From Acidobacteriaceae bacterium (lineage in GTDB: Bacteria > Acidobacteriota > Terriglobia > Terriglobales > Acidobacteriaceae): a DNA stretch of 64,000 nucleotides. The stretch's first letter is position 1. The number at the start of each line of letters is the position of its first letter. Made by a program: the position numbers and the translations under genes. The stretch is from contig PLDC01000028.1 of the NCBI GenBank assembly GCA_003134995.1, positions 1-64,000 of the forward strand. The letters are read 5' to 3'. Shown piece after piece: positions 28,612 to 49,353 of the stretch. A model generated the notes under the pieces. The model did not search any database. It saw only the letters and a program-made list of their open reading frames with translations, and was not told the DNA's origin.

Positions 28612-28653
28612 TAAGTAATTTGGATCGAGGCTATGCCCAACGAGGTGATGACA

Positions 28654-30078: not shown

Positions 30079-30146
30079 TGATTTAAACAATGGAATTTGA
30101 AACCAAGATACACCTTGAACACTGGGGTTCGACCGAGGAGACAGTC

Positions 30147-31391
30147 ATGCGAATCAAGAAGCAGTATTTCGCGCCCATCACCTTGCTCTTGCTTACCGTG
30201 TTGCTTTCGGTCACCCACGCGGTCGCGCAAGAAGGCTCAGCAAGAGAAAAAGTGCTTGTCAGTTTTACAGCCGAGAGCTCTGTCGGCAATACGCCGACTG
30301 GCGCACTGATTTCCGACGGTGCCGGAAATTTTTACGGGGTTAACGGTAACGGGGGCGTGGGGGGCGGAACGGTCTTTGAGATATCTCCCTCGGGCGAAGG
30401 AGGATGGACCGCAAAGTTGATCGATGATCTCCAATCGAACTCGCACTACGACAATGCGCTGGTCATGGATTCGTCCGGGAATCTTTACGGCACCCTCTAT
30501 GCCGGCGGCGCCAATGCCTGTACCGACGGTTACGACGATTACTTGTGCGGTGGGGTTTACGAGTTGTCGCCGAACGGCTCGGGTGCATTCACGGAAAACA
30601 TCCTATGGAACGCCAGCCAGAGGGGAGGGTGGCGACCGTATCACCTGATCATGGGCCCTGATGGAAACCTGTATGGCACCACCTATTGGGGCGGCGATTG
30701 GGGCAGCAACGTGGGAGGGGGAACTGTCTTTGAACTACAGCATACGGGTGAGCAATGGACGCACAGCATATTGTCCACCGGTGACGACTTGCCAGACAGC
30801 CTAGTTTTCGACAAGGCCGGAAACCTCTACGGCACGAACTACTACGGCGATGACTGGGTCGGAGGCGGCGCCCTCTTTGAGTTGAAGAAGACGAACGGCG
30901 GCTGGCAGGAAATCAATTTGTTCGAGTTCAACGCCAGCGGCTCCGGAGCATCGGGGGGATTTGGCCTAAACGGGGTGATCCTCGGCAGCGATGGCAATTT
31001 CTATGGGACGACGGATTCGGGCGGCAACGGACATGGTGTTGTATTCGAGTTGTCGCCGACGTCGGGTGGGGCCACGCAAGAGACCGTTTTGTACACCTTT
31101 CTAGACGGGGGACCAGACGAATACGCCGCTAACCCGCTCCTCGTCGAGTCAGCGGGCAATCTTTATGGCGCTACCTTCGGTGGCGGCCCGGGAGGGTATG
31201 GAACTGTCTTCCAACTCACGCCGTCAGGAAACGGCGCGTGGTCCTATACCCTCCTGCACAGTTTTCCGAGTGACGCTGAGGACGGCAAAAGCCCGAATGG
31301 TTTGCTAGTCGATTCAAAAGGAAATATTTACGGCACAACGGTGGGCGGCGGTACGGCGGGGTTGGGAACGGTGTTTGAGATTACGCCGTAG
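30147..31391 (+). CDS. array gene 7: divergent Gloeo/Verruco repeat protein lacking TIG and lacking the FC-x4-C motif; start set at MRIKKQYFAP
   Basis: Repeats DGNLYGTTYWGGDWGSNVGGGTVFELQ, ends GTVFEITP*; distinct signal peptide; SD gaggag. Confidence 0.9.
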   Translation: MRIKKQYFAPITLLLLTVLLSVTHAVAQEGSAREKVLVSFTAESSVGNTPTGALISDGAGNFYGVNGNGGVGGGTVFEISPSGEGGWTAKLIDDLQSNSHYDNALVMDSSGNLYGTLYAGGANACTDGYDDYLCGGVYELSPNGSGAFTENILWNASQRGGWRPYHLIMGPDGNLYGTTYWGGDWGSNVGGGTVFELQHTGEQWTHSILSTGDDLPDSLVFDKAGNLYGTNYYGDDWVGGGALFELKKTNGGWQEINLFEFNASGSGASGGFGLNGVILGSDGNFYGTTDSGGNGHGVVFELSPTSGGATQETVLYTFLDGGPDEYAANPLLVESAGNLYGATFGGGPGGYGTVFQLTPSGNGAWSYTLLHSFPSDAEDGKSPNGLLVDSKGNIYGTTVGGGTAGLGTVFEITP

Positions 31392-31460
31392 CCTCAAGAG
31401 GATTTTCACAAGTGCAACAGACGGCGTTCGTTTTGCAGCGCGGATTGCGAGGAGATTGTT

Positions 31461-32951
31461 ATGAAGAATTCTAAATTACAGCTCACCCTTGGCCTTGCAT
31501 TGGCGTGCGTAGTTTTCTCCTTTGGCCTGGCGGTGTGCGCCACGGCACAGACTTATGCCAACCTCGACTACTTCAATAAGCAAGACGGATGGGATGGCGC
31601 CGCCGGACCACTGATCCAGGGGACGGATGGAAACTTTTACGGCGCAACCGTCGTCGGCGGCGCAAACGTCGTCGGCTACGTTTTCGGCGCAGGAAATGTC
31701 TTCCAGTTGTCTCCCGCCGGAGAACTTCGATCGATTTACAGTTTTTGTTCGCAGCCCAACTGCGCTGACGGGCAATATCCGCTGCTGGGTCCCGTCCTCG
31801 CAAGCGACGAACACCTTTACGGAGTGGCGTCGGTGGGTGGAAGCTATGCTGGATCCATATATGGCTCAGGAACGTTTTACAAGCTGACGCTTGGCGGCGA
31901 GTTCACGCTCCTCTATACGTTCTGTCCCACCTCTCCATGCACTGACGGCTCGGGCCCGAACGGAATCATCCTGGGCAGCGACGGGAATTTTTACGGCGCG
32001 ACAGCAGCCGGGGGAGCATTCAGTGGCGGCACGATCTTCAGGATCAGCTCAACCGGCAAGCTCACGGTGTTGCACTCCTTTTGTTCGCTCAGCAATTGTA
32101 AAGATGGCAAAGAACCAAACTACGCGCCAATCCAAGCGAGCAACGGAAACTTTTATGGCACAACGATGGAGGGCGGAACCACGGGAAGCGGCGTCGTTTA
32201 CGAACTGACTCCATCCGGGATCTATACGGTGGTCCACAACTTCTGTTCTCTTGCTGGCTGCGCGGATGGAAGCGAGCCAACAACCTTAGTCCAGGGCACC
32301 GATGGAAATATTTTTGGCACAACTGTGGGAGGCGGCAGCGACGGCTACGGCTGGGGAACTGTATTCGAGATCACATCGACAAATCAATATGTCGTCCTGG
32401 ATAGTTTCGACATCCTGCGGGCCCATCCTTTTGCGGGACTGGCGCTGGCCAACGATGGCAATCTCTACGGAACTACGACCGGCGACGGGACCGGGTCAGG
32501 CATCAACGGCGGAACCATTTACGAGGTCACCCCACAGGGCAGGTATACGCAGCTCTACACGTTCAGCGAATGTAAGGGCGGCTATAACCCATCCGCGCCA
32601 TTGTTTCAGGGCACCGACGGCCTTATCTATGGAACCACTGGCTACGGCGGCTACGTCTCGCCGGATGGCTGCGGTGGCTATGGCACGATCTTCACCCTCG
32701 CGAATGGGCTCAGCCCGCTGGTGCAATCCGTACCCGTGGCTGGCCCCGTCGGGCAGAGCGTCATCATCCTGGGCAACGGTCTGACTGGATCGACCAGCGT
32801 CACCTTCAACGGCGTGGAGGCGGCGTTTACGGTTCAGTCCGATACCTATATTAAGGCGACGGTTCCAACGGGTGCGACGAGCGGCACGGTTTCTGTGGTC
32901 ACGCCATCGGGAACGCTGAACAGCAATCCGCAGTTTGTGGTGAGCAAGTAG
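31461..32951 (+). CDS. array gene 8: secreted Gloeo/Verruco repeat protein + TIG
   Basis: Repeats and TIG tail; SD gaggagattgttATG. Confidence 0.93.
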   Translation: MKNSKLQLTLGLALACVVFSFGLAVCATAQTYANLDYFNKQDGWDGAAGPLIQGTDGNFYGATVVGGANVVGYVFGAGNVFQLSPAGELRSIYSFCSQPNCADGQYPLLGPVLASDEHLYGVASVGGSYAGSIYGSGTFYKLTLGGEFTLLYTFCPTSPCTDGSGPNGIILGSDGNFYGATAAGGAFSGGTIFRISSTGKLTVLHSFCSLSNCKDGKEPNYAPIQASNGNFYGTTMEGGTTGSGVVYELTPSGIYTVVHNFCSLAGCADGSEPTTLVQGTDGNIFGTTVGGGSDGYGWGTVFEITSTNQYVVLDSFDILRAHPFAGLALANDGNLYGTTTGDGTGSGINGGTIYEVTPQGRYTQLYTFSECKGGYNPSAPLFQGTDGLIYGTTGYGGYVSPDGCGGYGTIFTLANGLSPLVQSVPVAGPVGQSVIILGNGLTGSTSVTFNGVEAAFTVQSDTYIKATVPTGATSGTVSVVTPSGTLNSNPQFVVSK

Positions 32952-33007
32952 TTGTTTGCGACTCATTCTTATTTCGCATTGATCGAACAAATCAGGGAGA
33001 GATTTCG

Positions 33008-34429
33008 ATGAAGAATTCCAAAGCTTTGCTTAACCTTGGCGTTGCACTGGCGTGTGCGGCCTTCATCTTCAGCCTGGCGGCGCGCGCCCAGGCACAGACC
33101 CTTTCCTACCTTGCCGACTTCGATGGTACGAACGGCTTCGGGCCCTTTGGTGGGGTGATCCAGGCGACGGACGGAAACTTTTACGGAACGACGACCAATG
33201 GCGGCGGTCATGGGTATGGGAACGTCTACCGCATAACACCGAGCGGAGAGATCACCTCGATTTACGATTTTTGCAAACGGCCCAATTGCGCCGACGGCGC
33301 AACTCCCGAGTCGGCTCCAGTGCTCGGAAGTGACGGCAACCTTTACGGTACGACCAATGGGTTCGCCTACGGCGGATACGGAACGGTATACAAGATGACG
33401 CTGAGCGGCGAACTTACGACCCTTTATACGTTCTGCTCGCTCGCGGAATGCGCCGACGGCTCGGTGCCAAACGGTCTCATGCAGGCCAGCGACGGGAACT
33501 TTTACGGCACAACATTCTCGGGAGGAAATTCCAACGCGGGCACGATCTTCAAGATCACCCCGGCCGGCCAGTTCACATCGCTCTACAGCTTTTGTTCGCT
33601 GGCGAATTGCGCAGATGGCAATAGTCCGGTCTATTCGCCGATCGAGGGCAGCGATGGAAACCTCTATGGCGCGGCGTGGGAATACCAGGGGGGAGGTGTC
33701 TTATACAGATTCACGCTGGCGGGAAACTATAAGGCCCTCTACAGCTTCTGCAGGGGGATCTTTTGCTCCGGCGGCTCGGGGCCGCTGGCGTTGGTGCAGG
33801 ATGGCAATGGAAATTTCTTTGGCACGACCCAGTATGGTGGCGGCAGCGACGACGTGGGAACCCTATTTGAACTCACAGCGAAGCAACAATTCATCAACCT
33901 GCACAACTTCGACAAAACTGATGGAGCCTACCCCAGTGCAGGATTGACGCTGGCCAGCGACGGCAATCTGTATGGAGCGACAGTAGAGGGTGGGCCGGCT
34001 GACGCGGGAACTATTTTTGAGATCACCACAGCGGGTACGTTCAGAACGCTCTATACATTCGCACATCCTTATGCCTTCAACCCGACTGGGCCGCTTTTTC
34101 AAGGCACCGATGGAAGTTTCTACGGAGCCACCCCCGGCGGCAATGGCGACGGCCCCCTGGGCACGGTCTTCAAATTCTCGAATGGCCTGGGCCAGTCGGT
34201 AGAAACCGCACCGGGGGCGGGCGCAGTCGGAAAAAGCGTTCTCATCCTCGGCAACGGGCTGACCGGATCTAGCAGCGTCACTTTCAACGGCGTGGCGGCG
34301 GCGTTCGCGGTGGAGTCCGATACCTACATTAAGGCGACTGTTCCAACGGGCGCGACGACCGGGACGGTTTCTGTAGTCACGCCTTTGGGAACGCTGAATA
34401 GTAATCCGCAATTTGTGGTGACGAAGTAA
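33008..34429 (+). CDS. array gene 9: secreted Gloeo/Verruco repeat protein + TIG
   Basis: Repeats and TIG tail. Confidence 0.93.
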   Translation: MKNSKALLNLGVALACAAFIFSLAARAQAQTLSYLADFDGTNGFGPFGGVIQATDGNFYGTTTNGGGHGYGNVYRITPSGEITSIYDFCKRPNCADGATPESAPVLGSDGNLYGTTNGFAYGGYGTVYKMTLSGELTTLYTFCSLAECADGSVPNGLMQASDGNFYGTTFSGGNSNAGTIFKITPAGQFTSLYSFCSLANCADGNSPVYSPIEGSDGNLYGAAWEYQGGGVLYRFTLAGNYKALYSFCRGIFCSGGSGPLALVQDGNGNFFGTTQYGGGSDDVGTLFELTAKQQFINLHNFDKTDGAYPSAGLTLASDGNLYGATVEGGPADAGTIFEITTAGTFRTLYTFAHPYAFNPTGPLFQGTDGSFYGATPGGNGDGPLGTVFKFSNGLGQSVETAPGAGAVGKSVLILGNGLTGSSSVTFNGVAAAFAVESDTYIKATVPTGATTGTVSVVTPLGTLNSNPQFVVTK

Positions 34430-34528
34430 TGATTGCACGTAGGGGCGGACGCATTCGTCTTGTCCGAGCGAAGCGAGCGCCCGCTAATTCCTGCGCTGCC
34501 TGACCGCGCACCTTAGGAGGACACTTCG

Positions 34529-35956
34529 ATGAGAGGTTCGAAATCTTTGCTGACCCTTGGCCTTGCGCTAGCGTGTGCGGCTATCACCTTTAGCTTGGCG
34601 GTGTGCGCGCAGGCGCAAGTCCTGCACACCGTGGGCGTCTTTGACGGCTCGAACGGTAACGGACCGTATTCATCTGTGGTCCAGGGGCCGGATGGGAATA
34701 TTTATGGCACAACTGACTCCGGCGGCAACGACACTCAGTCCGGCACTCTCTTTCGCTTAACACCCTCCGGGGAGGTCACCGATCTTTACAATTTCTGCTC
34801 TCTGGCTAAATGTGCCGACGGATGGGGTCCCGATGCGGCTCCCGTGGTGGGAATCGACGGAAACCTTTACGGAGTAGTTCAGGGAGGCGGAACCGGCCAA
34901 TTAGGGACATTTTACAGAATGACGCTTGATGGCGAATTTACCACCCTCTATACCTTTTGCCCCACTCGTCCCTGCACCGGGGGCGGCGCCCCGACCGGAA
35001 TCATCCTGGGCGGCGACGGGAATTTCTACGGCACCACAGACGGAGGGGGCAATGACTCCGGCTCCGGCACGATTTTCTCTATCAGTCCAACCGGCCAGTT
35101 CAAGCTGCTTTACACCTTTTGCTCGCTTACGCCGAATTGCCTCGATGGCACAAGGGCATTCTACCCGCCAATCCTGGGCAGTGACGGCAACCTTTATGGC
35201 GTAACCTGGGCCGGCGGAAGCCTGGGGGGCGGGGTCTTATACGAACTAACTCCTTCGGGAACTTATACCGTGCTTTACAACTTCTGTGATACAGACTTGG
35301 GCTGTTCCGGCATTGGAGAGCCCTACTACGTAGTGCGGGACGCCAATGGCAACTTCTTCGGCACAACTGAGTACAACGCCGAGGGGCGTGGGTACGGAAG
35401 CGTGTTTGAGTTCACGTCGACCAATCAACTGCTGGTGCTGCACAATTTCGATGACGACAACGACTGGCCCTACACAGGACTGACGATTGCCAATGACGGC
35501 AATGTCTACGGGGTGTTTGGATATGACACCAAGGCTAGCGGATCGATTTTCAAGGTGACTCCGGCGGGTGTTTACAGCAGGGTCTATTCCTTCTTCGGCA
35601 CGGCCGCTCCACCCGTTGGTCCGCTCTTTCAGGGCACCGATGGAAGTTTTTATGGAGTTACTCCCTACGGCCCCGGCGACTTTGATGGCGAAGTTTTCAG
35701 ATTCTCGAACGGCCTCAGCCCGCTGGTGGAAACTGTGCCCGTGATGGGCCCGGTCGGGCAGAGCGTCCTCATCCTGGGCAACGGCTTGACTGGATCTACC
35801 AGCGTCACCTTCAACGGCGTGGCGGCGGCGTTCACCGTGGAGTCCGACACTTACATCTCAGCGACGGTTCCTTCGGGCGCGACTACGGGAGCGGTTTCCG
35901 TGGTCACTCCGAGTGGAACGCTTAAAGGTAGTCCGCAGTTTGTGGTGACCAAGTAG
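34529..35956 (+). CDS. array gene 10: secreted Gloeo/Verruco repeat protein + TIG
   Basis: Repeats and TIG tail; close to gene 5 (VFDGSNGNGPYSSVVQGPDGNIYGTTDSGGN). Confidence 0.93.
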   Translation: MRGSKSLLTLGLALACAAITFSLAVCAQAQVLHTVGVFDGSNGNGPYSSVVQGPDGNIYGTTDSGGNDTQSGTLFRLTPSGEVTDLYNFCSLAKCADGWGPDAAPVVGIDGNLYGVVQGGGTGQLGTFYRMTLDGEFTTLYTFCPTRPCTGGGAPTGIILGGDGNFYGTTDGGGNDSGSGTIFSISPTGQFKLLYTFCSLTPNCLDGTRAFYPPILGSDGNLYGVTWAGGSLGGGVLYELTPSGTYTVLYNFCDTDLGCSGIGEPYYVVRDANGNFFGTTEYNAEGRGYGSVFEFTSTNQLLVLHNFDDDNDWPYTGLTIANDGNVYGVFGYDTKASGSIFKVTPAGVYSRVYSFFGTAAPPVGPLFQGTDGSFYGVTPYGPGDFDGEVFRFSNGLSPLVETVPVMGPVGQSVLILGNGLTGSTSVTFNGVAAAFTVESDTYISATVPSGATTGAVSVVTPSGTLKGSPQFVVTK

Positions 35957-36034
35957 TTGTTGCGGCGATTTACTGACCCTGATTTTGTTGTGAGACAAAT
36001 TGATGTTTGGCGCAAAGCCATTAAGGAGCATTCC

Positions 36035-37267
36035 ATGCATTCTCCCTCGCGTAGTCTCTCTGCTCTTGCCGCGGTTGTTTTGATCACATTGGTCGCGTTG
36101 CCGCTCGCCGCTTCGGCGCAGGACTTCGCAGTTTTGCAGAACTTCAACGTTACGAACGGCGACGATCCGCTTACGCCGCCAATTCTGGCGAGCGACGGCA
36201 ATCTATACGGCGCTACTGGGCATGGCGGCGCAAATGCGACCGGCCTGATTTACAAGCTCACGCCTCAGAATGAACTCACCACTCTCTACGCTTTCTGCTC
36301 CCACACCAACTGCGCCGACGGTTCTGATCCGGCGAGCGGTCCTTTCCAGGGCAGCGACGGTAATCTCTACGGAACTACATCCTACGGCGGAGCTAATGGC
36401 TTCGGCGTAGTGTACAAACTCACGCTGAGCGGCAAACTCACGGTGCTGCACAGTTTTTGCCAATGTGACGACGGGTGGTATTCAGACGGCTTAGTTGCGG
36501 ACGCCAAGGGCGGTTTCTATGGCACCACCCTCGAAGGCGGCTCGCATCAGTACGGAACCATCTTTCACCTCACCGGGCAGGGCAAGCTGAGCACGCTCTA
36601 CAACTTCTGCGACTCGCAAGCAAACTGCATCAACGCCTACGACAACAGCGCACCTCAGCCGCTGATCCTCGGGATCGACGGCAACGTCTACGGCATCACC
36701 AATACAGGCGGGCAATACTCCTATCCATGCTCGGCGGGCGGCTGCGGAACGGTCTTCAAGATCACGCCGCAAGGAGAATTCAGCATCGTCTACAGCTTCT
36801 GCAGCCTCACCAACTGCGCCGACGGCGGCCAGCCCGCAGGGCTGATTCAGGCTTCCGACGGAAACTTCTATGGCACGACGAGCCTCGGCGGCTCTGAGGC
36901 TTCCGGCGGCGGTACGGTCTTCCAACTCACAACCAGCGGCGTGCTGAAGACTCTACACAGCTTCTCCGCGGCCAAGGATGGAACCTCAGGCTATGCCCCG
37001 TACGACCTGATCCAGGCCAGCAACGGAACCTTGTACGGCACCACCATTTTCGGCGGCAACGAAGACCAGACATGCAAGAACCTGGGATGCGGCACCGTTT
37101 TTTCGGTGACCACGTCGGGCGCTTTCGAATCGCTGCACAATTTCGATGCCTCCGACGGCTATGTGCCCGTAGGGTTGGTACAGGCTTCGGACACTACGCT
37201 CAGTGGGACCACATCTTTCGGCGGCGCCCACAACGGCGGCGTTATTTTCAGCCTGAACTTGAACTAG
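36035..37267 (+). CDS. array gene 11: secreted Gloeo/Verruco repeat protein without TIG; start set at MHSPSRSLSAL
   Basis: Repeats throughout, ends GGVIFSLNLN*; different signal peptide; SD aaggag. Confidence 0.9.
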   Translation: MHSPSRSLSALAAVVLITLVALPLAASAQDFAVLQNFNVTNGDDPLTPPILASDGNLYGATGHGGANATGLIYKLTPQNELTTLYAFCSHTNCADGSDPASGPFQGSDGNLYGTTSYGGANGFGVVYKLTLSGKLTVLHSFCQCDDGWYSDGLVADAKGGFYGTTLEGGSHQYGTIFHLTGQGKLSTLYNFCDSQANCINAYDNSAPQPLILGIDGNVYGITNTGGQYSYPCSAGGCGTVFKITPQGEFSIVYSFCSLTNCADGGQPAGLIQASDGNFYGTTSLGGSEASGGGTVFQLTTSGVLKTLHSFSAAKDGTSGYAPYDLIQASNGTLYGTTIFGGNEDQTCKNLGCGTVFSVTTSGAFESLHNFDASDGYVPVGLVQASDTTLSGTTSFGGAHNGGVIFSLNLN

Positions 37268-37322
37268 AGGTTGCAGCGGGAAAAGTCTAGGACCTGTTGA
37301 TCCACATTAGGGGGATATTTCG

Positions 37323-38765
37323 ATGAAACGCTCCAAAGCTTTGCTGACTCTTGGCCTTGCTGTCGCGTGCGCGGCCATTACCTTCGCCTTGGCGGCTGGC
37401 GCCCAGGCACAGACCTTCTCCTACTTCACCAACTTCAGCGCCAGAGACGGGGGCTCGTCGGTGATGCAGGCGACAGACGGCAACCTTTATATGGGTGGCG
37501 GCCCCGGCGCGTACGGCCGAGGGGCCATCCTGCGAGTGACGCCCTCCGGAGGGTTCAACGTCTTATACAGTTTCTGCTCTCAGCGCGGCTGCCCAGACGG
37601 GTATGGTCCCTCTACTCCCATTCTTGGAAGCGACGGGAACTTTTACGGGACGACGGAAGCCGGCGGCAACCGTTTCGGTGGAGGAACGGTTTTTAAGATG
37701 ACCCTCCACGGCCAGCTCACGACGCTCTACTCATTCTGCACCACGAACGAATGCCCCGATGGCGCCGAACCGGGAGGAATCATTCAGGCTAGCGACGGGA
37801 ATCTTTACGGGATAACGATCGGCGCCGCATTGCAGGATTCAGGCACGCTTTTCCGGATCAATCCCACGACGGGTGAGTTCACGACGCTGCACTATTTCTG
37901 TTCGGCGGTGAATTGCGTGGATGGTTACGAACAATCGACGCCCATCCAGGGCATCGACGGCAACTTGTATGGAACCACACTTCTGGGAGGAGCAAACGGA
38001 GGTGGTGGCGTCCTCTATAAGCTAACCCTCGATGGCCAGTACACCATCCTCTATAACTTCTGCTCTCTTTCTCAATGCGCGGACGGCGGTGGGCCCACTG
38101 GGCTCGTGCAGGATGCCGAGGGGAATTTTTTTGGCACAACGGAGGGGGGTGGCGAAGATGGATATGGAACCGTGTTCGAGTTTACGACTACCCACCAAGA
38201 GATCGTCTTGGACAACTTTGACTACGTTCGCGGCGATCCGTGGGGATCGTTGACTTTGGCCAATGATGGCAATTTCTACGGAACGAGTGGAGGCGACGGG
38301 AGCCTCCAGGACGGCGGAACTGTCTTTAAGGTGACTCCGGCCGGTGAGATCACATTTCTGACTGTCTTTGGACCATGTGCCGATGATAGCGGTCGCTACC
38401 CGGGTGGGATCGTCTTTGAGAGTACGTCTGGAACTCTCTACGGAGTCACTTCCTACGGCAACAGCCTCGGCGACTGCAATAACAATGGCTTCGGCTATGG
38501 CACGATCTTCCAAGTCTCGGGCCTGAGTTCGCTGGTGGAGACCGCACCGCTGGCCGGCCCAGTCGGCCAGAGCGTCATCATTCTTGGCAACGGGCTGACG
38601 GGATCGACGAGCGTCACCTTCAACGGCGTGGAGGCGGAGTTCACGGTTGAGTCCGATACCTACATCAAAGCAACGGTTCCGGCGGGGGCGACTACTGGAG
38701 TGGTTTCTGTTGTTACACGGTTGGGAACACTTAAGAGCAATCCGCAGTTTGTGGTGAGCAAGTAG
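37323..38765 (+). CDS. array gene 12: secreted Gloeo/Verruco repeat protein + TIG
   Basis: Repeats and TIG tail; first blade DGNLYMGGGPGAYGRGAILRVTP as in gene 3. Confidence 0.93.
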   Translation: MKRSKALLTLGLAVACAAITFALAAGAQAQTFSYFTNFSARDGGSSVMQATDGNLYMGGGPGAYGRGAILRVTPSGGFNVLYSFCSQRGCPDGYGPSTPILGSDGNFYGTTEAGGNRFGGGTVFKMTLHGQLTTLYSFCTTNECPDGAEPGGIIQASDGNLYGITIGAALQDSGTLFRINPTTGEFTTLHYFCSAVNCVDGYEQSTPIQGIDGNLYGTTLLGGANGGGGVLYKLTLDGQYTILYNFCSLSQCADGGGPTGLVQDAEGNFFGTTEGGGEDGYGTVFEFTTTHQEIVLDNFDYVRGDPWGSLTLANDGNFYGTSGGDGSLQDGGTVFKVTPAGEITFLTVFGPCADDSGRYPGGIVFESTSGTLYGVTSYGNSLGDCNNNGFGYGTIFQVSGLSSLVETAPLAGPVGQSVIILGNGLTGSTSVTFNGVEAEFTVESDTYIKATVPAGATTGVVSVVTRLGTLKSNPQFVVSK

Positions 38766-38809
38766 TTGTTCGCGGTTGATCGGCGCGAAGGCGCCGAAGG
38801 AGATTCTTT

Positions 38810-38917
38810 ATGAAACGCAAGAAGCAGTTCCTCACACCCATCGCGTTGTTTCTGGTGACCGTTTTGATTGCGGTTGCACACCTTAAGACCTTTCCTGAAG
38901 GGATTTCAAAATTTTGA
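38810..38917 (+). pseudogene. signal-peptide relic of a gene-7-like array member (MKRKKQFLTPIALFLVTVLIAVAHLKTFPEGISKF*)
   Basis: Retains SD (gaaggagattcttt ATG); N-term aligns with gene 7 MRIKKQYFAPITLLLLTVLLSVTHAV, then loses homology and stops. Confidence 0.75.
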
Positions 38918-38961
38918 TCGGATGCAATTGGCTTTGCAGCGCGCAGCACGAGGACATTTCG

Positions 38962-40434
38962 ATGAAAGGCTCAAAATCTCTGGCGACCGTTGGTCTTGTA
39001 CTCGCTTGTACTGTTATCACCATCAGCCTGGCGGTGTGCGCCCAGGCGCAAACTCTGACCCAGTTCGACCTCAATGGGCAGACTGGCTATGAACCCTACA
39101 CCACGGTCACCCAGGCTACGGATGGAAATTTTTACGGGACAACTGGCTTCGGCGGTCCTAACTTCGAGGGAAACATTTTCCGCGTCACTCCCAGCGGAGA
39201 GGTCACGAATGTTCACAACTTCTGCCAGGAGCCCAATTGCGCCGACGGTTGGGCCGGTAACTGGCCTCCGATCCTCGCTTCGAACGGAAACCTCTACGGA
39301 GTAACCGAGGGCCAGACTGTAGATGGAGTGACGTACGGGCAAACTCTGTACAGGCTGACCGTGGATGGCGAGTTCACGAATCTGTTCTCCATCTGCAGCT
39401 CGGGATGCTCGCACCCCCTCGGCATCACACTGGCCCGCGACGGTAATTTTTACGGCGTAGGCGGCGGAGGGTCGAGCAACAACGGGACGATCTTCCGGGT
39501 GAGCCTGAACGGCCAGTACACGGTGCTCCACTCTTTTTGCGTGCTCCCAAACTGCATTGACGGCAATTACGCACTCTACCCTCCGATCCAGGGCAACGAC
39601 GGAAACTTTTACGGTACAACCCTGGTTGGGGGATCCGAGAACACTGGCGTGGTCTACAAAATTACCCCTTCGGGTACGTACACAGTAATCCATAATTTCT
39701 GCGCTTTCGAAAACGGCAACTGCCCTGGCGGAACGTATCCCGCGGCAGGACTGGTGCAGGATGCCGACGGCAACTTTGTGGGCGCGACTCAAAGCGGAGG
39801 CACGGGTTACAACGGCGTTGTCTTCAAGATTACCCCGGCCGGCCAATACTCGGTAATTTATAACTTCGATCGAGCTAGCGCCTACGTAGGCTGGAGTTCG
39901 GCAGCACTGACGCTTGGCAGCGACGGTAATTTTTATGGCGTTTTAGGAGGTGGTCCTTCTGGTTCGTGGGATCCGGACGTCTCAGGCGGCGTCTATCGAC
40001 TCACACCCGAGGGCGTGTACACGCTGCTCTACAAATTCCGTGAAGGTCTTGGGTATGGCTTCAATCCGCTCGCGCCGGTTATTCAAGGCACAGACGGAAA
40101 CCTTTACGGAACCGACGCCTTTGGCGGCATTCCCGCCGGATACTTGACTCCAGATGACGGCTATGGAACCGCCTTCCAATTAACGACCGGCCTCAGCCCT
40201 CTTGTGGAAACGGTGCCCGCGGCCGGACCAGTCGGGCAGAGCGTGATCATTCTTGGCAATGGCCTGACTGGAACTACCAGCGTCAAGTTCAACGGGGTAG
40301 AAGCGGAGTTTACTGTGGAGTCCGATACTTATATCAAGGCTACGGTTCCGGCTGGCGGGACTACGGGTGTGGTTTCTGTTCTTACTCCATCGGGAACGCT
40401 TAACAGTAATCCGCAGTTTGCGGTGAGCAAGTAG
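38962..40434 (+). CDS. array gene 13: secreted Gloeo/Verruco repeat protein + TIG; start set at MKGSKSLATVG
   Basis: Repeats and TIG tail; SD gaggacatttcgATG. Confidence 0.92.
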   Translation: MKGSKSLATVGLVLACTVITISLAVCAQAQTLTQFDLNGQTGYEPYTTVTQATDGNFYGTTGFGGPNFEGNIFRVTPSGEVTNVHNFCQEPNCADGWAGNWPPILASNGNLYGVTEGQTVDGVTYGQTLYRLTVDGEFTNLFSICSSGCSHPLGITLARDGNFYGVGGGGSSNNGTIFRVSLNGQYTVLHSFCVLPNCIDGNYALYPPIQGNDGNFYGTTLVGGSENTGVVYKITPSGTYTVIHNFCAFENGNCPGGTYPAAGLVQDADGNFVGATQSGGTGYNGVVFKITPAGQYSVIYNFDRASAYVGWSSAALTLGSDGNFYGVLGGGPSGSWDPDVSGGVYRLTPEGVYTLLYKFREGLGYGFNPLAPVIQGTDGNLYGTDAFGGIPAGYLTPDDGYGTAFQLTTGLSPLVETVPAAGPVGQSVIILGNGLTGTTSVKFNGVEAEFTVESDTYIKATVPAGGTTGVVSVLTPSGTLNSNPQFAVSK

Positions 40435-40570: not shown

Positions 40571-43069
40571 CTACTCGTGCTTCAGGACTTCGTCGATTAC
40601 TGCTTTGCCGCCTTTGTCTACGGTGATTACTTTGTGGACGGAGACGTAGCCGCTCATGGTTATGTCTACCATGTAGTTGCCGGGGTCAAGGGTAAAGTCG
40701 ACGGGCGAACTCTTATCGAGCATGTGCTGGTTGACGGCGACCTGGGCTCCCTTGGGCTGAGTCTTGACGCTGACCGAGCCCATGGCCTTGGCATCTTTGC
40801 CGCCGAAGAGCTTATTCATTTTCCCGACAGTTTTGATGTCGTCGACGTTGCCCAGGAGGCGCAGCGTGGGCGAAAAGTTCACGGTTTGGCCCAAGGTGAA
40901 CTGGGCGTTGGTAGTTTCGTCCAGGTAACCCGACTTGCGTACGAGAACTATGTGCGTCCCTTTGTCTAGCGAAACCTGAGCGGGAGTTTGTTTTCCGGTG
41001 TCTTTGCCGTCGATGTAGACGCTGGCTCCGGCGGGAGTGCTCGACACTGCGAGCGTCGCCATGAGTTGAGTGAGATGGGTTACCACAAACGACTTGCTGC
41101 CAGAGGTGACCTCGACGGTTCGCGTATCGGAAGAGTAGCCGGACTTGCTGGCAGTAACGGAATGTTGGCCGGGGTCTAATCCGGGCAGGGTGAAGGGCGT
41201 AACCCAAGTGGGATCGGTCTTGCCATCGATTGAAACTTGCGCACCTTGAGGAACGGAATCGACCGACATTTGTCCGGGAACTACTATGGCGGCGACTGCG
41301 GGAGGAGCGGCTTTCTTTTTTGCATTTTTGGTTCGGGCCGCCGCGTGAGTCGAGGCTGGCTCGGCCTCTGCCACAGGCGCGACGGGTTGAGGCTGCGCTG
41401 TTTCGGCGGGCTGGGCTGGCTGCGTGGGCGTTGGCTGAGGGCGCGCGACTGGCTGGCTGGCCGCGGGTTGCGCAGTGGATTCGGCGACTGGACGAGGGGA
41501 ATCGTTGTCGCTATTCAAACTGTTGACGTGGAGAACTAGAACTACAGCGATGATCAAAATTACGACCGCAGCTCCGGCGATGGAATAAACCATCAGGCTG
41601 GGCGGGATGTTCTTCACTTCCTTCAACGCTTTCTGAGCGACTTCACGGGGCTGAACCTTGGGCTTCTCCTCTTCATACTCGTAGAGCGTGGAGTTGCGTG
41701 ATTGAGAAGACGACTTTCCGAAGACCGGCGGCGGAGGTGGTACTTGCGACGGTGGAGGCGGCGCTAGATAGACTTCTTTGAGCGGAGGCAGTTCGGTCAT
41801 CTCCGAGAAACTCACGCTGCCGCCGCGAGACCCAGCGTTGTCCTCGGACATCATGGGATCTACGGCGATTTTGGGCGACTGCACTCGGGAAGCGACGACG
41901 GCCGGTTCATCTACGACGGCTGAAGACGAGAAAGCTGGCGGCGCCGTGTTGCTGGAAGGCCTGGCAGGTGCAGATGAAACGGCATCTGTGGTCGTGCATC
42001 CGGGGCCGCAGCCCGCGGCGGCGGCTTTGGTGAAAGTTGGCGGTGGAGGTGCGATTTTCTTTTCTGCCGCCGGTTTTTGAACTGGCTGGTTCTGAACCGG
42101 CTGGTTCTGAACCGGAGTTGTTTGTACGGGAAGCGCGGCCGGCTTGGCTGCTGGAGGAGTGGACGCTCCGACGAATTTTGCCTGGTTTGCCGCTTTGACA
42201 GCCTCTGGAATGGCCGGAGCTTTCGCGGGCGCGCTTGCCGGCTTTGCAGCCTGCGGCTTAGATTCTTTGCACTTCTCCAAATCGTCGAGCAGTTCCCTTC
42301 CGCTCTGGTAGCGTTCGCCGGGATCTTTGGCGAGAGCCTTCATGATGAGATCACTCAGCACCGGGTGGAGTTTTGGATTCAGGTGCATGGGCGGGATTGG
42401 CGTGCTCTCGAGGATGCTCTGACGCAGGGAGTCGGCGTCTTCCCGATCGAAGGCCTTGCGATCAGCGACCATCTCGTAAAACATGGCGCCGAGACTGAAG
42501 AAGTTAGAGCGTGCATCGATATTGTCGCCGCGGATCTGCTCGGGAGACATGTATGGCAGGATCGCGGGAACGCCGGGCATTTGCGCGGTAAATTTGCCAA
42601 CGCCGGAAATGCCGTAGCTCAAAATTCTGACGGTACCGTCCCATCCGCACATGATCTTTGCGGGTTCGAGACTATAGTGGAAAACTTTGTGGGAGTGGGC
42701 GTGGTCGAGGCCGCTGCAAACTTGACGTCCGATATCGAGAAGGTCCCAGATGGAAAAGCCTTCTTTGCGGGCGAGCATGGTCGCAATGCTGTTGCCCTGA
42801 ATGTATTCCATGGCGGCGCAAAATTGGCCGTCCATTTCTCCCGCACCGAAAACGGGCGTGAGATTGGAGTGGCTGAGGACCTTGGTAGCCTCGGCCTCGG
42901 CGAGGAGGCACTGCTCCAGTTCCGCTGATTGCTCGCCAAAGGCGGATAGCTGAATCGCTTTCAGGGCGACGGTTTGGCTGGTTTGCGGGTCCGTCGCCTT
43001 GTAAACGGCGCCAGTCGCAGACTTAGAGAGTTCACTCAGGATTTCGAAGTGGCCGATTTTTGTGGACAT
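40571..43069 (-). CDS. Ser/Thr protein kinase-like protein with degenerate active site (predicted pseudokinase), TM, and PEGA repeats
   Basis: Kinase fold motifs VALKAIQL, YMSPEQIRGDNIDARSNFFSLGAMFYEM; HRD position reads HYS, DFG position reads SYG; TM LMVYSIAGAAVVILIIAVVLVLHV; C-term PEGA-like units (VDSVPQGAQVSIDGKTDPTWVTPFTLPGLDPGQHSVTASKSGY etc.). Confidence 0.88.
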   Translation of the reverse strand: MSTKIGHFEILSELSKSATGAVYKATDPQTSQTVALKAIQLSAFGEQSAELEQCLLAEAEATKVLSHSNLTPVFGAGEMDGQFCAAMEYIQGNSIATMLARKEGFSIWDLLDIGRQVCSGLDHAHSHKVFHYSLEPAKIMCGWDGTVRILSYGISGVGKFTAQMPGVPAILPYMSPEQIRGDNIDARSNFFSLGAMFYEMVADRKAFDREDADSLRQSILESTPIPPMHLNPKLHPVLSDLIMKALAKDPGERYQSGRELLDDLEKCKESKPQAAKPASAPAKAPAIPEAVKAANQAKFVGASTPPAAKPAALPVQTTPVQNQPVQNQPVQKPAAEKKIAPPPPTFTKAAAAGCGPGCTTTDAVSSAPARPSSNTAPPAFSSSAVVDEPAVVASRVQSPKIAVDPMMSEDNAGSRGGSVSFSEMTELPPLKEVYLAPPPPSQVPPPPPVFGKSSSQSRNSTLYEYEEEKPKVQPREVAQKALKEVKNIPPSLMVYSIAGAAVVILIIAVVLVLHVNSLNSDNDSPRPVAESTAQPAASQPVARPQPTPTQPAQPAETAQPQPVAPVAEAEPASTHAAARTKNAKKKAAPPAVAAIVVPGQMSVDSVPQGAQVSIDGKTDPTWVTPFTLPGLDPGQHSVTASKSGYSSDTRTVEVTSGSKSFVVTHLTQLMATLAVSSTPAGASVYIDGKDTGKQTPAQVSLDKGTHIVLVRKSGYLDETTNAQFTLGQTVNFSPTLRLLGNVDDIKTVGKMNKLFGGKDAKAMGSVSVKTQPKGAQVAVNQHMLDKSSPVDFTLDPGNYMVDITMSGYVSVHKVITVDKGGKAVIDEVLKHE

Positions 43070-43611
43070 GGTTCCGTGCCTCATCCCAGAAAAAAGCCGC
43101 GCAGTTCTTTGTGGAGAACGCGTGGTCTAAAACCCGGGGCAGGTTAAGGCTAGGATAGCGCTGGGGAGTTTGAGGTTCGAGTTACCAAAGTACTGTGAAA
43201 TCAGTGTGAAACGGTGGGGAGCGGGCTCGATGATTTGCGCCTGAGGTTTGGTTGGTGAACGGATGCGCCACCGAAAATCATGATAGATCTCCTTATGTAC
43301 GCATTTTGTACGCGCGCAAAATAACGGAGCTTCCGGCGTTACTTTTCTTTTGGGGCAAACGTTAAGTTCGTTGACGGAGAGAAGTGTGACAATTGTCATG
43401 TGGGCCGTGTGACGATCTCCACTGGCGTTGGGGCGCTCGCGGATCGAATATGGAGGCAGATGGTCGTTGCGCGTGGCGGTTTTTTGCGGGATCGGGCGCA
43501 GGTTGTGAGAAGCGGACTTATTCGTTTATCCTTGTGGCCTGCTTGGACTGAGCTGCTGGTCTGCTCGCCAGCACGCCGCGTCTTCTCTTGGGTTCAACTG
43601 GGTTTCAAAAT

Positions 43612-44760
43612 ATGACGTTAACCCGATTTGTCACCAAGAACGCTCTCCGCAACAAGCGCCGCAGCATTCTGACCGTACTGAGCATTGGAGTTTCACTGCT
43701 GCTCCTGACTTTCATGATCACGGTGTGGCGCGGTTTCTACATCGAGAAGGGGAGCGCGGAATCGACGCGGCGGTTGGTGACGCGACACCGAGTGTCGCTT
43801 ACTTTCGACTTGCCGGGCTTCTATCGCGAGAAAATCCGCTCGGTGCCGGGAGTGGTGGCGGTCGTTCCCAATTCCTGGTTTGGCGGCCTATATAAAGATA
43901 ACAAGCCGGAAAACTTTTTCGCGCAGTTCGGGACCGATCCCGATGAGTTTCCGAAAGTCTTCCCGGAGATGCAGATACCAGCCGACCAGCTTGCGGCGTG
44001 GCAACGCGACCGGGCCGGGACGATCGTGAATGACGAACTGGCCAAGCAATTCGGCTGGAAGCTGGGAGATCGCGTTGTGCTGCAGGGGACGATCTATCCC
44101 GTCAACCTGGAATTGACGATTCGCGGCATCCACCATTGGCCGACGGCTAACAAGACGCTTTACTTCAACTCGAAGTATTTGGAAGAAGCGGTGCCTGAGT
44201 TTAAGGGCAAGGCCGGCACGTTCGGCATTATGGCGGCGTCGCCCGAGGACGTGAGCAAAATCGCCAGCGCTGTTGACGATATGTTCCGCAATTCGCCGCA
44301 GCCTACCAAGACCGAAAGCGAGAAAGCTTTTGGGCTGACTTTTGTGAACATGCTGGGGAACGTGAAGGCTTTCATCCTCAGCATATGTTTGGCTGTGGTC
44401 TTCACTACGCTTCTGGTTTCGGCCAACACGATGGCAATGTCGATTCGCGAAAGAACGCGCGAAGTGGCCGTGCTTAAGACTTTGGGATTCGAGCGGCAGA
44501 CCATCCTTGGCCTATTTGTTGGCGAGGCCATGTCGCTTTCGATTGCAGGCGGACTGTTTGGTGCCGGGTTCGCGTGGCTACTGCTAACGCTGATGAAACA
44601 TTCGCCGATGGGTTTTTTCCTGGCGCAGATGCAAGTTACGCTTGGAACGATAGCCGTGGCAGTGTTGGCAGCGGCGCTGGTGGGATTCTTCAGTTCGCTG
44701 GTGCCGTCTTACCACGCATCGCGCGTGGAGATTGTAGAAGGGTTACGGCATATCGGCTAA
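43612..44760 (+). CDS. ABC transporter permease, FtsX/MacB family
   Basis: MTLTRFVTKNALRNKRRSILTVLSIGVSLLLL; FtsX core VFTTLLVSANTMAMSIRERTREVAVLKTLGFERQTILGLFVGEAMSLS. Confidence 0.92.
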   Translation: MTLTRFVTKNALRNKRRSILTVLSIGVSLLLLTFMITVWRGFYIEKGSAESTRRLVTRHRVSLTFDLPGFYREKIRSVPGVVAVVPNSWFGGLYKDNKPENFFAQFGTDPDEFPKVFPEMQIPADQLAAWQRDRAGTIVNDELAKQFGWKLGDRVVLQGTIYPVNLELTIRGIHHWPTANKTLYFNSKYLEEAVPEFKGKAGTFGIMAASPEDVSKIASAVDDMFRNSPQPTKTESEKAFGLTFVNMLGNVKAFILSICLAVVFTTLLVSANTMAMSIRERTREVAVLKTLGFERQTILGLFVGEAMSLSIAGGLFGAGFAWLLLTLMKHSPMGFFLAQMQVTLGTIAVAVLAAALVGFFSSLVPSYHASRVEIVEGLRHIG

Positions 44761-44764
44761 ATTT

Positions 44765-45916
44765 ATGACGCTCAGCAGTTTTGTCGTGCGCAATACGTTT
44801 CGCAACAAGCGGCGCAGCATTCTGACGCTGCTGAGCATTGGCTTTTCTCTTTTGCTGCTCACTCTAATGGCCTCGATCTGGCGCACATTTTATATCGACG
44901 TGGGAGCGCCGGATTCAGCGAGACGGGTGATTACGCGCGACCGCGTTTCTCTGGCATTTTTTCTTCCCGCGTACTACCGCGAGAAGATTCGGAGCCTTCC
45001 CGGTGTGGTTGCAGTCGCGCCCATGACCTGGTTTGGAGGCCGTTATAAGGATGACCGTCCGGAGAACTTCTTTGCGCAGTTGGCGACCGATCCCGACGAG
45101 TATATGAAGGTTGCATCCGACAAGATCATTCCGCCGGAGCAGGTAGTGGCGTGGCAGCGTGATCGCTCGGGCGCCCTGGTGGATGTAACGCTGGCCAATA
45201 AGTATGGCTGGAAAATCGGCGACAAGATCATTCTGCTGGGAACGATATTTCCGGTGAACCCCGAATTGACGATTCGCGGCATCTACCACCGGGACCCGCC
45301 GCAGAACGCGCTGTATTTTAACGCCAAGTATCTGGAAGAAGCGGTGCCATGGTTCAAAGGGCAGGCGGGCTGGTATTCCACGCAGTTGGCGAATCCGGAC
45401 GATGTGGCGCGCGTCTCGGGTGAGATCGACGACATGTTCCGCAACTCGCCCGAGCAAACGAAAACCGAGAGTGAAAAAGCCTTCCAGCTTTCGTTTGTGG
45501 CCACGCTGGGCAATGTGAAGGCATTCATTCTTGGCATCTGTGGAGCGGTGGTGTTCACCATCCTGTTAGTGTCGGCCAATACGATGGCCATGTCGGTTCG
45601 CAGCCGGACCCGGGAGATCGCTGTGCTGAAAACACTGGGGTTCACTCGCCAGCGAGTGCTGTCGCTGTTTGTCTTCGAAGCGGTGGCTCTGGCGGTGGCG
45701 GGCGGGGTGCTGGGCATACTCGGGGCGACTGGATTGATTCAGTTGATCACGCATTCTTCGATCGCGATCGGCATTCCCATCGACATGAAAGTTAAGCTGC
45801 CGACAATGGGCCTCTGTTTACTGGTGGCGGCGACCGTAGGGTTTCTTAGCGGATATATTCCCGCCTACGGCGCGTCACGCGTAAATATTGTGGAGGGGTT
45901 GCGGCATATCGGGTGA
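44765..45916 (+). CDS. ABC transporter permease, FtsX/MacB family (paralog of the preceding gene)
   Basis: Colinear similarity to the upstream ORF over its whole length (NKRRSILTLLSIGFSLLLL, MAMSVRSRTREIAVLKTLGF, VNIVEGLRHIG). Confidence 0.92.
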   Translation: MTLSSFVVRNTFRNKRRSILTLLSIGFSLLLLTLMASIWRTFYIDVGAPDSARRVITRDRVSLAFFLPAYYREKIRSLPGVVAVAPMTWFGGRYKDDRPENFFAQLATDPDEYMKVASDKIIPPEQVVAWQRDRSGALVDVTLANKYGWKIGDKIILLGTIFPVNPELTIRGIYHRDPPQNALYFNAKYLEEAVPWFKGQAGWYSTQLANPDDVARVSGEIDDMFRNSPEQTKTESEKAFQLSFVATLGNVKAFILGICGAVVFTILLVSANTMAMSVRSRTREIAVLKTLGFTRQRVLSLFVFEAVALAVAGGVLGILGATGLIQLITHSSIAIGIPIDMKVKLPTMGLCLLVAATVGFLSGYIPAYGASRVNIVEGLRHIG

Positions 45917-45991
45917 TGCGGGGCGGCAGTGCGGAGGCGGGCGGCCTGCGCTACGGGATGCGTTGATGTTGCACCGGAATTGAGTTTACTT

Positions 45992-47155
45992 ATGGCGATA
46001 CCTATCAGTTACAACGTGCGGAATTTGAAGCTTCGCAAGGGGCTCACCATCATGACTGCGCTGGGGATTGCGCTGACGGTTACCACGGCGATTTTCCTGA
46101 TGGCCTTACTGGCGGGACTTAAGAAGGCTTTCGTTTCCAGCGGGAATTCGCAGAATGTGCTGGTGCTGCGCAAGGGGTCGGAGGCGGAATTATCTGGCGG
46201 CTTCGATGCGTCGCTATTCCCTACGCTGAAAGTTCTGCCCGGAATCGCGAAGGACAGCCACGGCGAGCCGATGGCATCCGGCGAGTTGGTGGTGGTGATC
46301 GTGCTGCCGCGCAAGGATGGGACAGGAGAAGTCAACGTCACTGTGCGCGGCATGATGCCCGATGGCCTGGAGCTTCGGCCGGGCGCGAAATTGGTTGATG
46401 GGCGCTGGTTCCAAACGGGGCAGCGGGAGGTGGTGGTAAGTAAATCCATCCGCTCGCGCTTTTCGCATGCCAACATTGGCGACACAATGGAGTTCGGCAA
46501 GGGCTCGTGGAAGGTGGTTGGCGTATTTGACGCTGGAGGTTCGGCTTACGAATCCGAGGTGTGGGGCGATGTGAATCAGATGGCCACGGACTTCGACCGG
46601 CAAGGTGGATATTCTTCCGCGTACTTGGCCGCCACGGATGCGATTTCCGCGGACGCCCTCACCAAGCGGGTTAGCGATGACCAGCGGCTCAAACTTGAGG
46701 GAGTGCTGGAGACAGATTATTACGCGAAGCAAACCAGTTCCGGAGGCCCGATTAAGTTCATTGGCATTGTCGTTGCGATCATCATGGCCGTTGGGTCTAG
46801 TTTCGCGGCGATGAATACGATGTATGCGGCGGTGGCGTACCGTGGCCGTGAAATTGCGACCTTGCGAGTGCTGGGATTCTCGCGTCCGGCGATTCTGACT
46901 TCTTTTGTTCTGGAATCTCTGATGCTGGCTTTGCTCGGCGCGGTGGTGGGGATTCTGCTGATGCTGCCATTTAACGGAATGCAGACCGGAACGTCGAATC
47001 AGGTGACGTTTAGCGAGGTGGTATTCAGTCTGCAGATTACGTGGGCGGTTGCCGCGGCTGCAATTGGATTCGCGCTGGTGATGGGGTTAGTTGGCGGATT
47101 CGCTCCGGCGTGGCACGCGGCGCGGCAGAATATTCTTACGGCGCTGCGAGGGTGA
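45992..47155 (+). CDS. ABC transporter permease, FtsX/MacB family (more divergent third permease)
   Basis: LKLRKGLTIMTALGIALTVTTAIFLMALLAGL, AAMNTMYAAVAYRGREIATLRVLGFSRPAILTSFVLESLMLAL. Confidence 0.9.
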   Translation: MAIPISYNVRNLKLRKGLTIMTALGIALTVTTAIFLMALLAGLKKAFVSSGNSQNVLVLRKGSEAELSGGFDASLFPTLKVLPGIAKDSHGEPMASGELVVVIVLPRKDGTGEVNVTVRGMMPDGLELRPGAKLVDGRWFQTGQREVVVSKSIRSRFSHANIGDTMEFGKGSWKVVGVFDAGGSAYESEVWGDVNQMATDFDRQGGYSSAYLAATDAISADALTKRVSDDQRLKLEGVLETDYYAKQTSSGGPIKFIGIVVAIIMAVGSSFAAMNTMYAAVAYRGREIATLRVLGFSRPAILTSFVLESLMLALLGAVVGILLMLPFNGMQTGTSNQVTFSEVVFSLQITWAVAAAAIGFALVMGLVGGFAPAWHAARQNILTALRG

Positions 47156-47272
47156 AGTAAGGAAGCGAGCCAAACGCGCGATTATTGCGTCGCAAAGAAC
47201 GCGACGCTTCGCGCGGCTCGCCCAGATCCTTCACCGCGCGAAGAACGCTTGCTCAGGATGACAGGTGGATAG

Positions 47273-48637
47273 ATGCCGATTGATGCAAAACACGAAGACT
47301 TGCAGAGCTTGCGGATCGACCGCTCGGCGCGCGGCGCGAGCACTGGGGAACCGCCGCGGTGGGCGCGCCGCTACATTGTGATTGGGATTGTGGTCGTCGC
47401 GGTGCTGAGCTTGTCCGTTCTTGCCTACCGGTTGCTTTCTCGCGATGTGCCGGAAGTTGAGGTGACACGCGCTTCCGCGGAGAGCAGCGATGTGGGCGGC
47501 ACGGTGCTTTCGGCTACCGGATACATTGTGGCTCACCACACCATCAATGTGAATTCCAAGGTCACTGGACGCCTGGCCTGGATTGGCGTGGAAAAAGGCG
47601 ACAAGGTTAAAGAAGGACAGGTTCTGGTGCGGCTGGAAGATGAGGAGTTTCGCGCTTCGTACAATCAGGCGAAGGGCTCGCTCGACAATGCTCGAGCTTA
47701 TCTTGACGAGCTTGAGCATGGGTCGAGGCCGGAAGAGATTCAGCAGGCGCAACATAATCTTGACGAAGCCCGCGCCACGCTGGTGGATGACAAGCTGACT
47801 CTGGATCGCACGAAACAACTCTCATCTGCTGGAGTGGTTTCGCGGCAAGTCATGGACGATGCTACGGCGAAGTTCGAGGCGGATCAGCAGAGAGTGAATT
47901 CTCTAGAAAAAGCGTCTCAACTCATGAAGATCGGCCCACGCGCGGAAGAAATCGCGCGTGCGCGCGGATCGTTGGCTCAAGCGCAAGGCCAGTTGGACTA
48001 TGCGAAGTCGCAGCTCGACGCTACGGTGATCCGGGCGCCGGTCACCGGCACGATTCTTGACCGTACGGCGGAGAAAGGTGAACTGATCACGGCGCAGTTC
48101 GCTAGCGCAGCGGCCGGTGGGCCGCAGGGATCCGTGGTATCGCTGGCGGACTTGAACGATCTTCAGGTTGAGCTTGATATCGCGCAGGCGGACTTCGCGC
48201 GGCTGGGGCCCAAACAAAAAGGGATCGTCACTACCGACGCTTATCCCGATCGCAAATACAACGGGGAGATCGCACAAATTTCGCCTGAGGCCAATCGGCA
48301 GAAGGCGACCGTGCAGGTGAAGGTGCAGGTGCTGAATCCGGATGAGTATCTGCGGCCGGAGATGAATGCCACGGTGAAGTTCCTGGCGGACGAACAGAAA
48401 TCCACTGGCAAGCAGCCCGCAGGAGCGTTTGTGCCTGCGACAGCGGTGCGGGATCACGATGGCAAGAAGGTGGTTTTCCTGGCGTTCAATGGCAAGGCGA
48501 CGATGCGCGAGGTTCACGTGCTGAGCCAGCGCACCGATGGTTTTCTCGTGGACGGACTGGTGGGCGGCGAGAGCGTGATCAGTAAGGGTCCGCAGGATAT
48601 GAAAGACGGCGACACAATTAAAATCAAGGGGCAGTAA
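47273..48637 (+). CDS. HlyD/MacA-like periplasmic adaptor (membrane fusion protein)
   Basis: N-terminal [45 protein letters not shown], coiled-coil region, [18 protein letters not shown]. Confidence 0.92.
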
Positions 48638-48639
48638 TC

Positions 48640-49353
48640 ATGAGCGCAGTTATGGAAAACAAGGTTGCTACCGGAACGAAAGTTGTGCAGGCGCGAAATG
48701 TCAGCAAGATTTTCAAGCGCGAGGCGTTTCAAGTGACGGCTCTTGACGATGTCTCGATTGACATTGAAGCCGGCGAATTCATGGCGTTGATGGGGCCTTC
48801 AGGCTCGGGCAAGACCACGCTGCTGAATATGATCGCGGCCATTGACCGGCCAACGTCCGGCGAATTGCTGGTGCAGAATCAGAACGTTTTTCAGTTCAGC
48901 GACTCGCAGGCGGCGCACTGGCGCAACGAGCACATCGGGTATGTCTTCCAGACATTCAACCTGATTCCGGTGCTGACGGCGTTTGAAAATGTGGAACTGC
49001 CGCTGCTGCTGACCAAGCTCAATGCGCAGCAAAGGCGCGACCATGTTGTGACCGCATTAAAACTTGTGGGATTGGAAGACCGGCTGAATCATCTTCCCAA
49101 GCAGCTTTCTGGCGGACAGGAACAACGGGTTGCAATCGCCCGCGCGATCGTCAGCGATCCCACGCTGTTGCTGGCCGATGAGCCGACGGGAGATTTGGAT
49201 AGTCACTCGGCGACCGAAGTCCTGGAAATCCTGAAGCGGCTGAATGAGGACTTTCATAAAACGATCGTGATGGTGACGCACGATCCGCACGCAGCATCGT
49301 ATGCGCACGTCACGCGGCATCTGGAGAAGGGGATGCTGTTGCCGCCGGGATAG
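48640..49353 (+). CDS. ABC transporter ATP-binding protein (LolD/MacB-type)
   Basis: Walker [10 protein letters not shown], signature [15 protein letters not shown], Walker [14 protein letters not shown]. Confidence 0.96.

Follow-up and report, generated by a model that had tools for sequence, protein, structure and literature searches.

A 64,000-nucleotide stretch of acidobacterial DNA (the window) encodes on its minus strand a protein built like a PEGA-domain receptor Ser/Thr kinase in which HRD reads HYS and DFG reads SYG. The locus raises two questions: whether such a protein can still transfer phosphate and, if it cannot, what it has been kept for.

A kinase fold with a rebuilt active site

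The open reading frame spans 40571-43084 and has two candidate starts, 43069 and 43084; since the Met at 43069 (MSTKIGHFEIL) is common to the orthologs, the ATG at 43084 is the less likely one. Pfam recognises a single kinase domain (Pkinase, PF00069, E 5.5e-32) and three stretches of PEGA (E 5.3e-40), and in the AlphaFold2 (AF2) model the kinase domain has two lobes and, like the three PEGA domains, scores mostly pLDDT >90; a transmembrane helix lies at residues ~490-520, and the linkers, of which the cytoplasmic one is long, are disordered (Table 1). The top solved fold in Foldseek is PknB of M. tuberculosis (TM-score at most 0.83, by target length; identity 25-27%). Profile, model and PknB match agree on a protein kinase-like fold, and the N-terminal kinase domain, transmembrane helix and C-terminal PEGA repeats (Pfam, AF2) give the layout of a PEGA-domain receptor kinase; the retained fold, the membrane helix and the several PEGA units of the original prediction are all borne out.

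VALK (with Lys37), LSKSATGAVYKA, SPEQ and RSNFFSLG are all present, as first described, and HYS (codons at 42671-42679) and SYG (42611-42619) lie exactly where they had been placed. Alignment to PknB pairs HRDVKPAN and DFG with HYSLEPAK and SYG and reveals more replacements than first claimed: the loop Lys (K168-equivalent) has become Glu135, the metal-binding Asn (N171-equivalent) Lys138, and the subdomain IX Asp Asn189. The Gly-rich loop, described at first as having lost its glycines, is mostly degraded, position 17 being Gly in 15/15 active sister kinases and Ser in 29 of 31 members of the pseudokinase clade, but G20 remains in the window protein. The residues expected of an active Ser/Thr kinase (HRD Asp, DFG Asp, loop Lys and Asn) are missing, and the protein belongs to a conserved family that lacks both Asp residues and keeps the beta3 Lys, as a pseudokinase would. 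An active kinase with shifted motifs was considered and rejected: the PknB alignment is unambiguous and no intact HRD or DFG occurs anywhere in the protein.

Table 1. Features of the pseudokinase gene and the divergent exporter operon
Feature	Position in window	Strand	Evidence or remark
PEGA pseudokinase CDS	40571..43069	-	832 aa + stop
Pseudokinase domain, residues 1-270	42260..43069	-	PF00069, AF2, PknB fold
Degenerate Gly-rich loop LSKSATGAVYK, residues 14-24	42998..43030	-	sequence and ortholog alignment
Beta3 Lys37 (VALK)	42959..42961	-	invariant 72/72
AlphaC Glu58	42896..42898	-	invariant 72/72
Pseudo-catalytic loop HYSLEPAK (H131-K138), replaces HRDxKPxN	42656..42679	-	E135, P136, K138 invariant
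SYG (151-153), replaces DFG	42611..42619	-	position 151 G or S in 71/72 rows
Asn189 for subdomain IX Asp (RSD to RSN)	42503..42505	-	Asn 71/72; Asp 15/15 active sister kinases
Linker motif PKIAVDPMM...SFSE..ELPPLKEVY, residues 399-440, disordered cytoplasmic linker	41750..41875	-	72-row alignment
Juxtamembrane helix, residues 474-486	41612..41650	-	AF2; conserved in alignment
Transmembrane helix, residues ~490-520	41510..41602	-	AF2
PEGA domain 1 (601-668)	41066..41269	-	Pfam, AF2
PEGA domain 2 (669-738)	40856..41065	-	Pfam, AF2
PEGA domain 3 (760-832)	40574..40792	-	Pfam, AF2
Intergenic region, divergent pseudokinase/exporter genes	43070..43611		542 bp
MacB/FtsX-type permease 1, likely start ATG 43612	43612..44760	+	Pfam FtsX 3.3e-16, MacB_PCD 5.7e-08
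MacB/FtsX-type permease 2, paralogue of permease 1, same cluster	44765..45916	+	clustering
MacB/FtsX-type permease 3	45929..47155	+	MacB_PCD 1.9e-19, FtsX 1.1e-15
HlyD-type membrane fusion (adaptor) protein	47273..48637	+	HlyD_D23 4.7e-20
ABC ATPase of exporter	48640..49353	+	ABC_tran 3.4e-38

With the catalytic base and both metal ligands lost, no phosphotransfer is predicted; the original prediction to this effect holds as far as sequence can test it, the HRD Asp, DFG Asp, loop Lys, metal Asn and subdomain IX Asp all being replaced, and the pseudokinase is strongly predicted to be non-catalytic. Since the Lys37-Glu58 pair and the fold are kept, the domain would serve as a binding platform. 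On the other side, some pseudokinases without both HRD and DFG motifs are reported as active (IRAK2, in work cited in PMC2686265), and the intact Lys37 and Glu58 leave room for nucleotide binding or weak activity; sequence alone is an unreliable predictor of nucleotide binding by pseudokinases (PMC4718504).

The same residues bear on two further readings. As a Mg-independent nucleotide sensor, the pocket would hold ATP or ADP without catalysis, Lys37 and Lys138 would neutralise the phosphates, and the nucleotide state would set a conformation read by the linker and a partner. Lys37 and Glu58 (72/72) and Lys138 are invariant among the orthologs, STRADalpha binds ATP without Mg via basic residues at equivalent sites (PMC2686265) and murine MLKL is similar (PMC4718504); yet the Gly loop is degenerate, the acidic Glu135 occupies the normal site of the Lys that contacts the gamma-phosphate, and in TRIB1, where the metal-binding Asn is likewise Lys, the pocket is occluded (PMC4718504), so that we think a sensor of this kind rather unlikely. 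Far less probable still is a new enzymatic activity on the kinase fold, comparable to SelO AMPylation or SidJ glutamylation: the invariant non-kinase polar residues Glu135 and Lys138 in the former active site would suit it, but neither canonical metal ligand (the equivalents of Asn171 and Asp184) remains, whereas SidJ, as it is described in PMC12599244, still works with its beta3 Lys and metal Asp, and the AF2 model is that of an ordinary kinase domain.

Conservation and descent from active PEGA kinases

Orthologs, full or partial, are present in 44 of 45 same-genus genomes, with the altered motif kept, and about 42 of the 150 genomes sampled from the family-level lineage of Acidobacteriota carry one too. 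The relatives that have names are Candidatus Sulfotelmatobacter and other Terriglobales MAGs, and dozens of genera of soil acidobacteria have kept the rebuilt centre. Outside this lineage, a 109-genome sample of the phylum yielded no further pseudokinase of this class at E<=1e-55, the one further match being an active sister kinase, and no plasmid-borne relatives were found at 1e-40. Over an alignment of 72 rows (the window protein and 71 orthologs), H131, E135, P136, K138, K37, E58, W143, D144 and G153 are invariant and position 133 is Ser in 69, with H-x-S-L-E-P-x-K and L-[GS]-[FY]-G as the conserved patterns. For the 14 closest pairs, pairwise dN/dS of the kinase domain was 0.04-0.23 except in one pair with very low dS (0.35), and the linker is under looser constraint.

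Taken alone, the loss of catalytic residues might suggest a decaying or mis-sequenced, functionless kinase gene, a reading to which we give almost no credence. The orthologs across genera have the altered HYS/SYG-type site and no intact HRD or DFG, which excludes the local sequence error that the original prediction had allowed for, and the invariant altered residues and low dN/dS indicate that the site is maintained and not decaying, which rules out a pseudogene.

From its own genome 43 kinase-domain ORFs were recovered, a count that a very divergent kinase may have escaped since the pseudokinase itself was the search query; it is the sole one without HRD/HGD and DFG, the 42 others having HRD (HGD in one) and DFG. 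In the family sample, where six candidates were scored per genome, genomes with a LEPAK pseudokinase had no active PEGA sister kinase at E<=1e-60; the active sister was found in other genera, some of which also have an intermediate pseudokinase.

A kinase-domain tree of 60 rows, with the catalytic columns removed, groups all 38 HRD-less members in one clade beside the active PEGA kinases (bootstrap 100, SH-aLRT 98, with the bootstrap not fully settled and L102 on a long branch). On this tree parsimony counts a single change for each of HRD Asp, subdomain IX Asp, E135, K138 and W108; the DFG Asp takes three. The path from the active PEGA kinases is a staircase, with a single loss of the HRD Asp first and then loss of the DFG Asp and the Glu/Lys swap: intermediates read HGN, HRN, HPN or HPE and retain DFG (DYG in one), the basal member L088 reads HKRLHPAN with LGFG, and H-x-S-L-E-P-x-K is the next stage. 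Loss of DFG coincides with a new linker motif and with linkage to an exporter, neither of which was seen in those active and intermediate paralogues that were examined.

Two side branches of this history may be mentioned. The intermediates L092, L094, L113 and L102, in which the beta3 Lys is replaced by Arg and the alphaC Glu and HRD Asp are lost while DFG is kept, are sister pseudokinases that followed a route opposite to that of the window clade; judging from these residues, loss of the catalytic Asp came first and is common to all, and sublineages then appear to have taken apart opposite halves of the ATP site. In the LEPAK clade, two members (L061 and L083) read LDFG, with the metal Asp, kept or regained, beside an SLEPAK loop.

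The linker motif and the neighbouring exporter

Within the otherwise variable linker the motif core is DPMM...SFS[ED]..ELPPLKE, and seven of the motif residues (D404, P405, F421, S422, E426, P428 and P429) are invariant in the 72 rows. The basal member L088 carries the motif, the intermediate and active sister kinases examined do not, and no second copy was found elsewhere in the genome at E<=5. In combining disorder with an invariant motif, the linker resembles the tail of the MviN pseudokinase, which recruits FhaA according to the account in PMC12599244.

The main rival to an exporter-serving scaffold takes up this likeness: the protein would be an allosteric partner or decoy that forms a dimer with one of the ~42 intact kinases, activates it or is its substrate, and the exporter link would be incidental synteny. 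Candidate partners exist in the 42 kinase ORFs with HRD/HGD and DFG, the invariant Ser of SFS is a possible phospho-acceptor, and PknB is described as phosphorylating the MviN tail (PMC12599244). We hold this to be possible but doubtful, for no active kinase gene is adjacent and the recurrent neighbour is the exporter.

That exporter, of the MacB type, is encoded by a divergent operon spanning 43612-49353 in the window. At 44 of the 63 loci that have 2.5 kb or more of upstream sequence, the operon adjoins the pseudokinase, and the locus of the basal member L088 (L209) also has it. Among 150 genomes, 34 have both pseudokinase and permease, 8 the pseudokinase alone, 7 the permease alone and 101 neither (Fisher 3e-19, a value that ignores common descent), and the two genes lie within 8 kb of each other in 25 of the 34. 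No exporter was seen beside active or intermediate PEGA paralogues in the flanks taken. This conserved neighbourhood of permeases, HlyD adaptor and ABC ATPase points to the MacB-type exporter as, from its genomic position, probably the partner. The linkage is suggestive and not proof, because co-occurrence is confounded by shared ancestry and some downstream genes of the same block, a REC-TonB gene and pyruvate dehydrogenase genes, are likewise conserved; the 19 loci without the operon and the 8 and 7 genomes with one gene only also count against it.

The REC-TonB gene of the window (16049-17752, plus strand) encodes a protein that ends in a TonB domain and has a weak match to a receiver domain, under the Pfam cut-off and possibly degenerate; at 34 of 58 loci its relatives (cluster 2) are downstream neighbours of the pseudokinase. 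In many relatives the two are close convergent neighbours; here an array of 13 tandem paralogous genes (20992-40434, plus strand; open frames of ~430-590 codons) for GNLYGTT-repeat proteins sits between them, and both of the repeat proteins tested have a TIG domain. Elsewhere in the window (58250-60565, minus strand), a weak match to a single-cache sensor is fused to a glycosyltransferase family 20 domain of the trehalose-phosphate synthase type.

We favour, with moderate confidence, a descendant of an active PEGA-domain Ser/Thr kinase that has lost phosphotransfer and been re-used as a membrane-spanning signalling scaffold. The three PEGA domains would read some periplasmic signal, Glu135 and Lys138 together with the Lys37-Glu58 pair would turn the ATP/Mg site into a pocket that is fixed or independent of Mg, the disordered SFSE..ELPPLKE motif would be a docking or phospho-accepting element, and as its output the protein would control either the MacB-type ABC exporter next to it or an active kinase that acts on this exporter. 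The transmembrane scaffold or sensor of the original prediction keeps its conditional form, but is strengthened by the clade-specific linker motif, the purifying selection and the exporter-operon linkage. A bolder version, which we put forward only tentatively, makes the pseudokinase a dedicated accessory subunit of the exporter, in which PEGA would sense substrate or envelope state, and the Glu135/Lys138 pocket and the ELPPLKE docking motif would relay it to the pump. If true, the flux-sensing module BceS-BceAB would have in such a subunit an analogue built on the kinase fold, one whose evolutionary intermediates survive.

Comparison with known systems

The nearest relatives are the active PEGA Ser/Thr kinases of the same family-level lineage (L093, L096-L112), which form the sister group on the tree and have the same order of kinase domain, transmembrane helix and three PEGA domains (tested for L093), but in which HRD, loop Lys, Asn, DFG and RSD are intact, SFSE..ELPPLKE is missing and the flanks taken hold no MacB operon. 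PknB, the closest solved fold, is likewise active, whereas the pseudokinase is without the catalytic and metal-binding residues. BceAB-BceS (PMC5985334) shares the coupling of a MacB-type ABC transporter to a membrane-bound sensor of kinase type, but the sensor there, BceS, is a histidine kinase for which a two-hybrid interaction has been reported, while the link of the pseudokinase to the exporter is a genomic one.

For the altered site, the parallels are TRIB1 and STRADalpha (PMC4718504, PMC2686265), which also have a basic residue at the metal-binding Asn position, loss of DFG and the logic of a regulatory scaffold: Lys210 of TRIB1 makes a salt bridge in an occluded pocket (PMC4718504), and STRADalpha employs His200 there in binding ATP without Mg (PMC2686265). 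Both are eukaryotic, unrelated at the family level and without transmembrane or PEGA segments, and a counterpart of Glu135 is not reported there. As PMC12599244 describes it, the ActPs3/MviN protein is, like ours, a membrane-associated pseudokinase with all-round motif loss, a functional C-terminal tail and a scaffold role; it differs in having VALT and an activation-loop deletion, in being fused to the MviN transporter body and in being actinobacterial, whereas the window protein keeps the beta3 Lys, has no such deletion and has a PEGA ectodomain. These parallels and the retained features favour a transmembrane scaffold or sensor, most likely one that serves the exporter.

Most bacterial pseudokinase functions are unknown. 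A 2025 review names seven bSTK pseudokinase families, ActPs1, ActPs2, ActPs3, GLW, CP1, DYD and DLHK (PMC12599244), with the marks, in its descriptions, of a beta3 Arg (ActPs2), an activation-loop deletion (ActPs3), GLW for HRD, DYD for DFG, no transmembrane segment and COG3899 (CP1), or no transmembrane segment and the HRD Asp kept (DLHK). None is tied to acidobacteria or PEGA in the main text of the review, from which 'acidobacter-' and 'PEGA' are absent as words, and we found no relevant literature on acidobacterial PEGA kinases. A defined rebuild of the active site, a series of losses of single origin whose intermediates survive, a putative docking motif confined to the clade and a candidate partner make the role of a kinase fold after loss of catalysis directly testable here. 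With its beta3 Lys, HxS, [GS][FY]G, transmembrane helix and PEGA domains, the protein falls outside the seven families as they are described (from ActPs1 in part only) and is, by these descriptions, a new family within a known kind, the bacterial STK pseudokinases.
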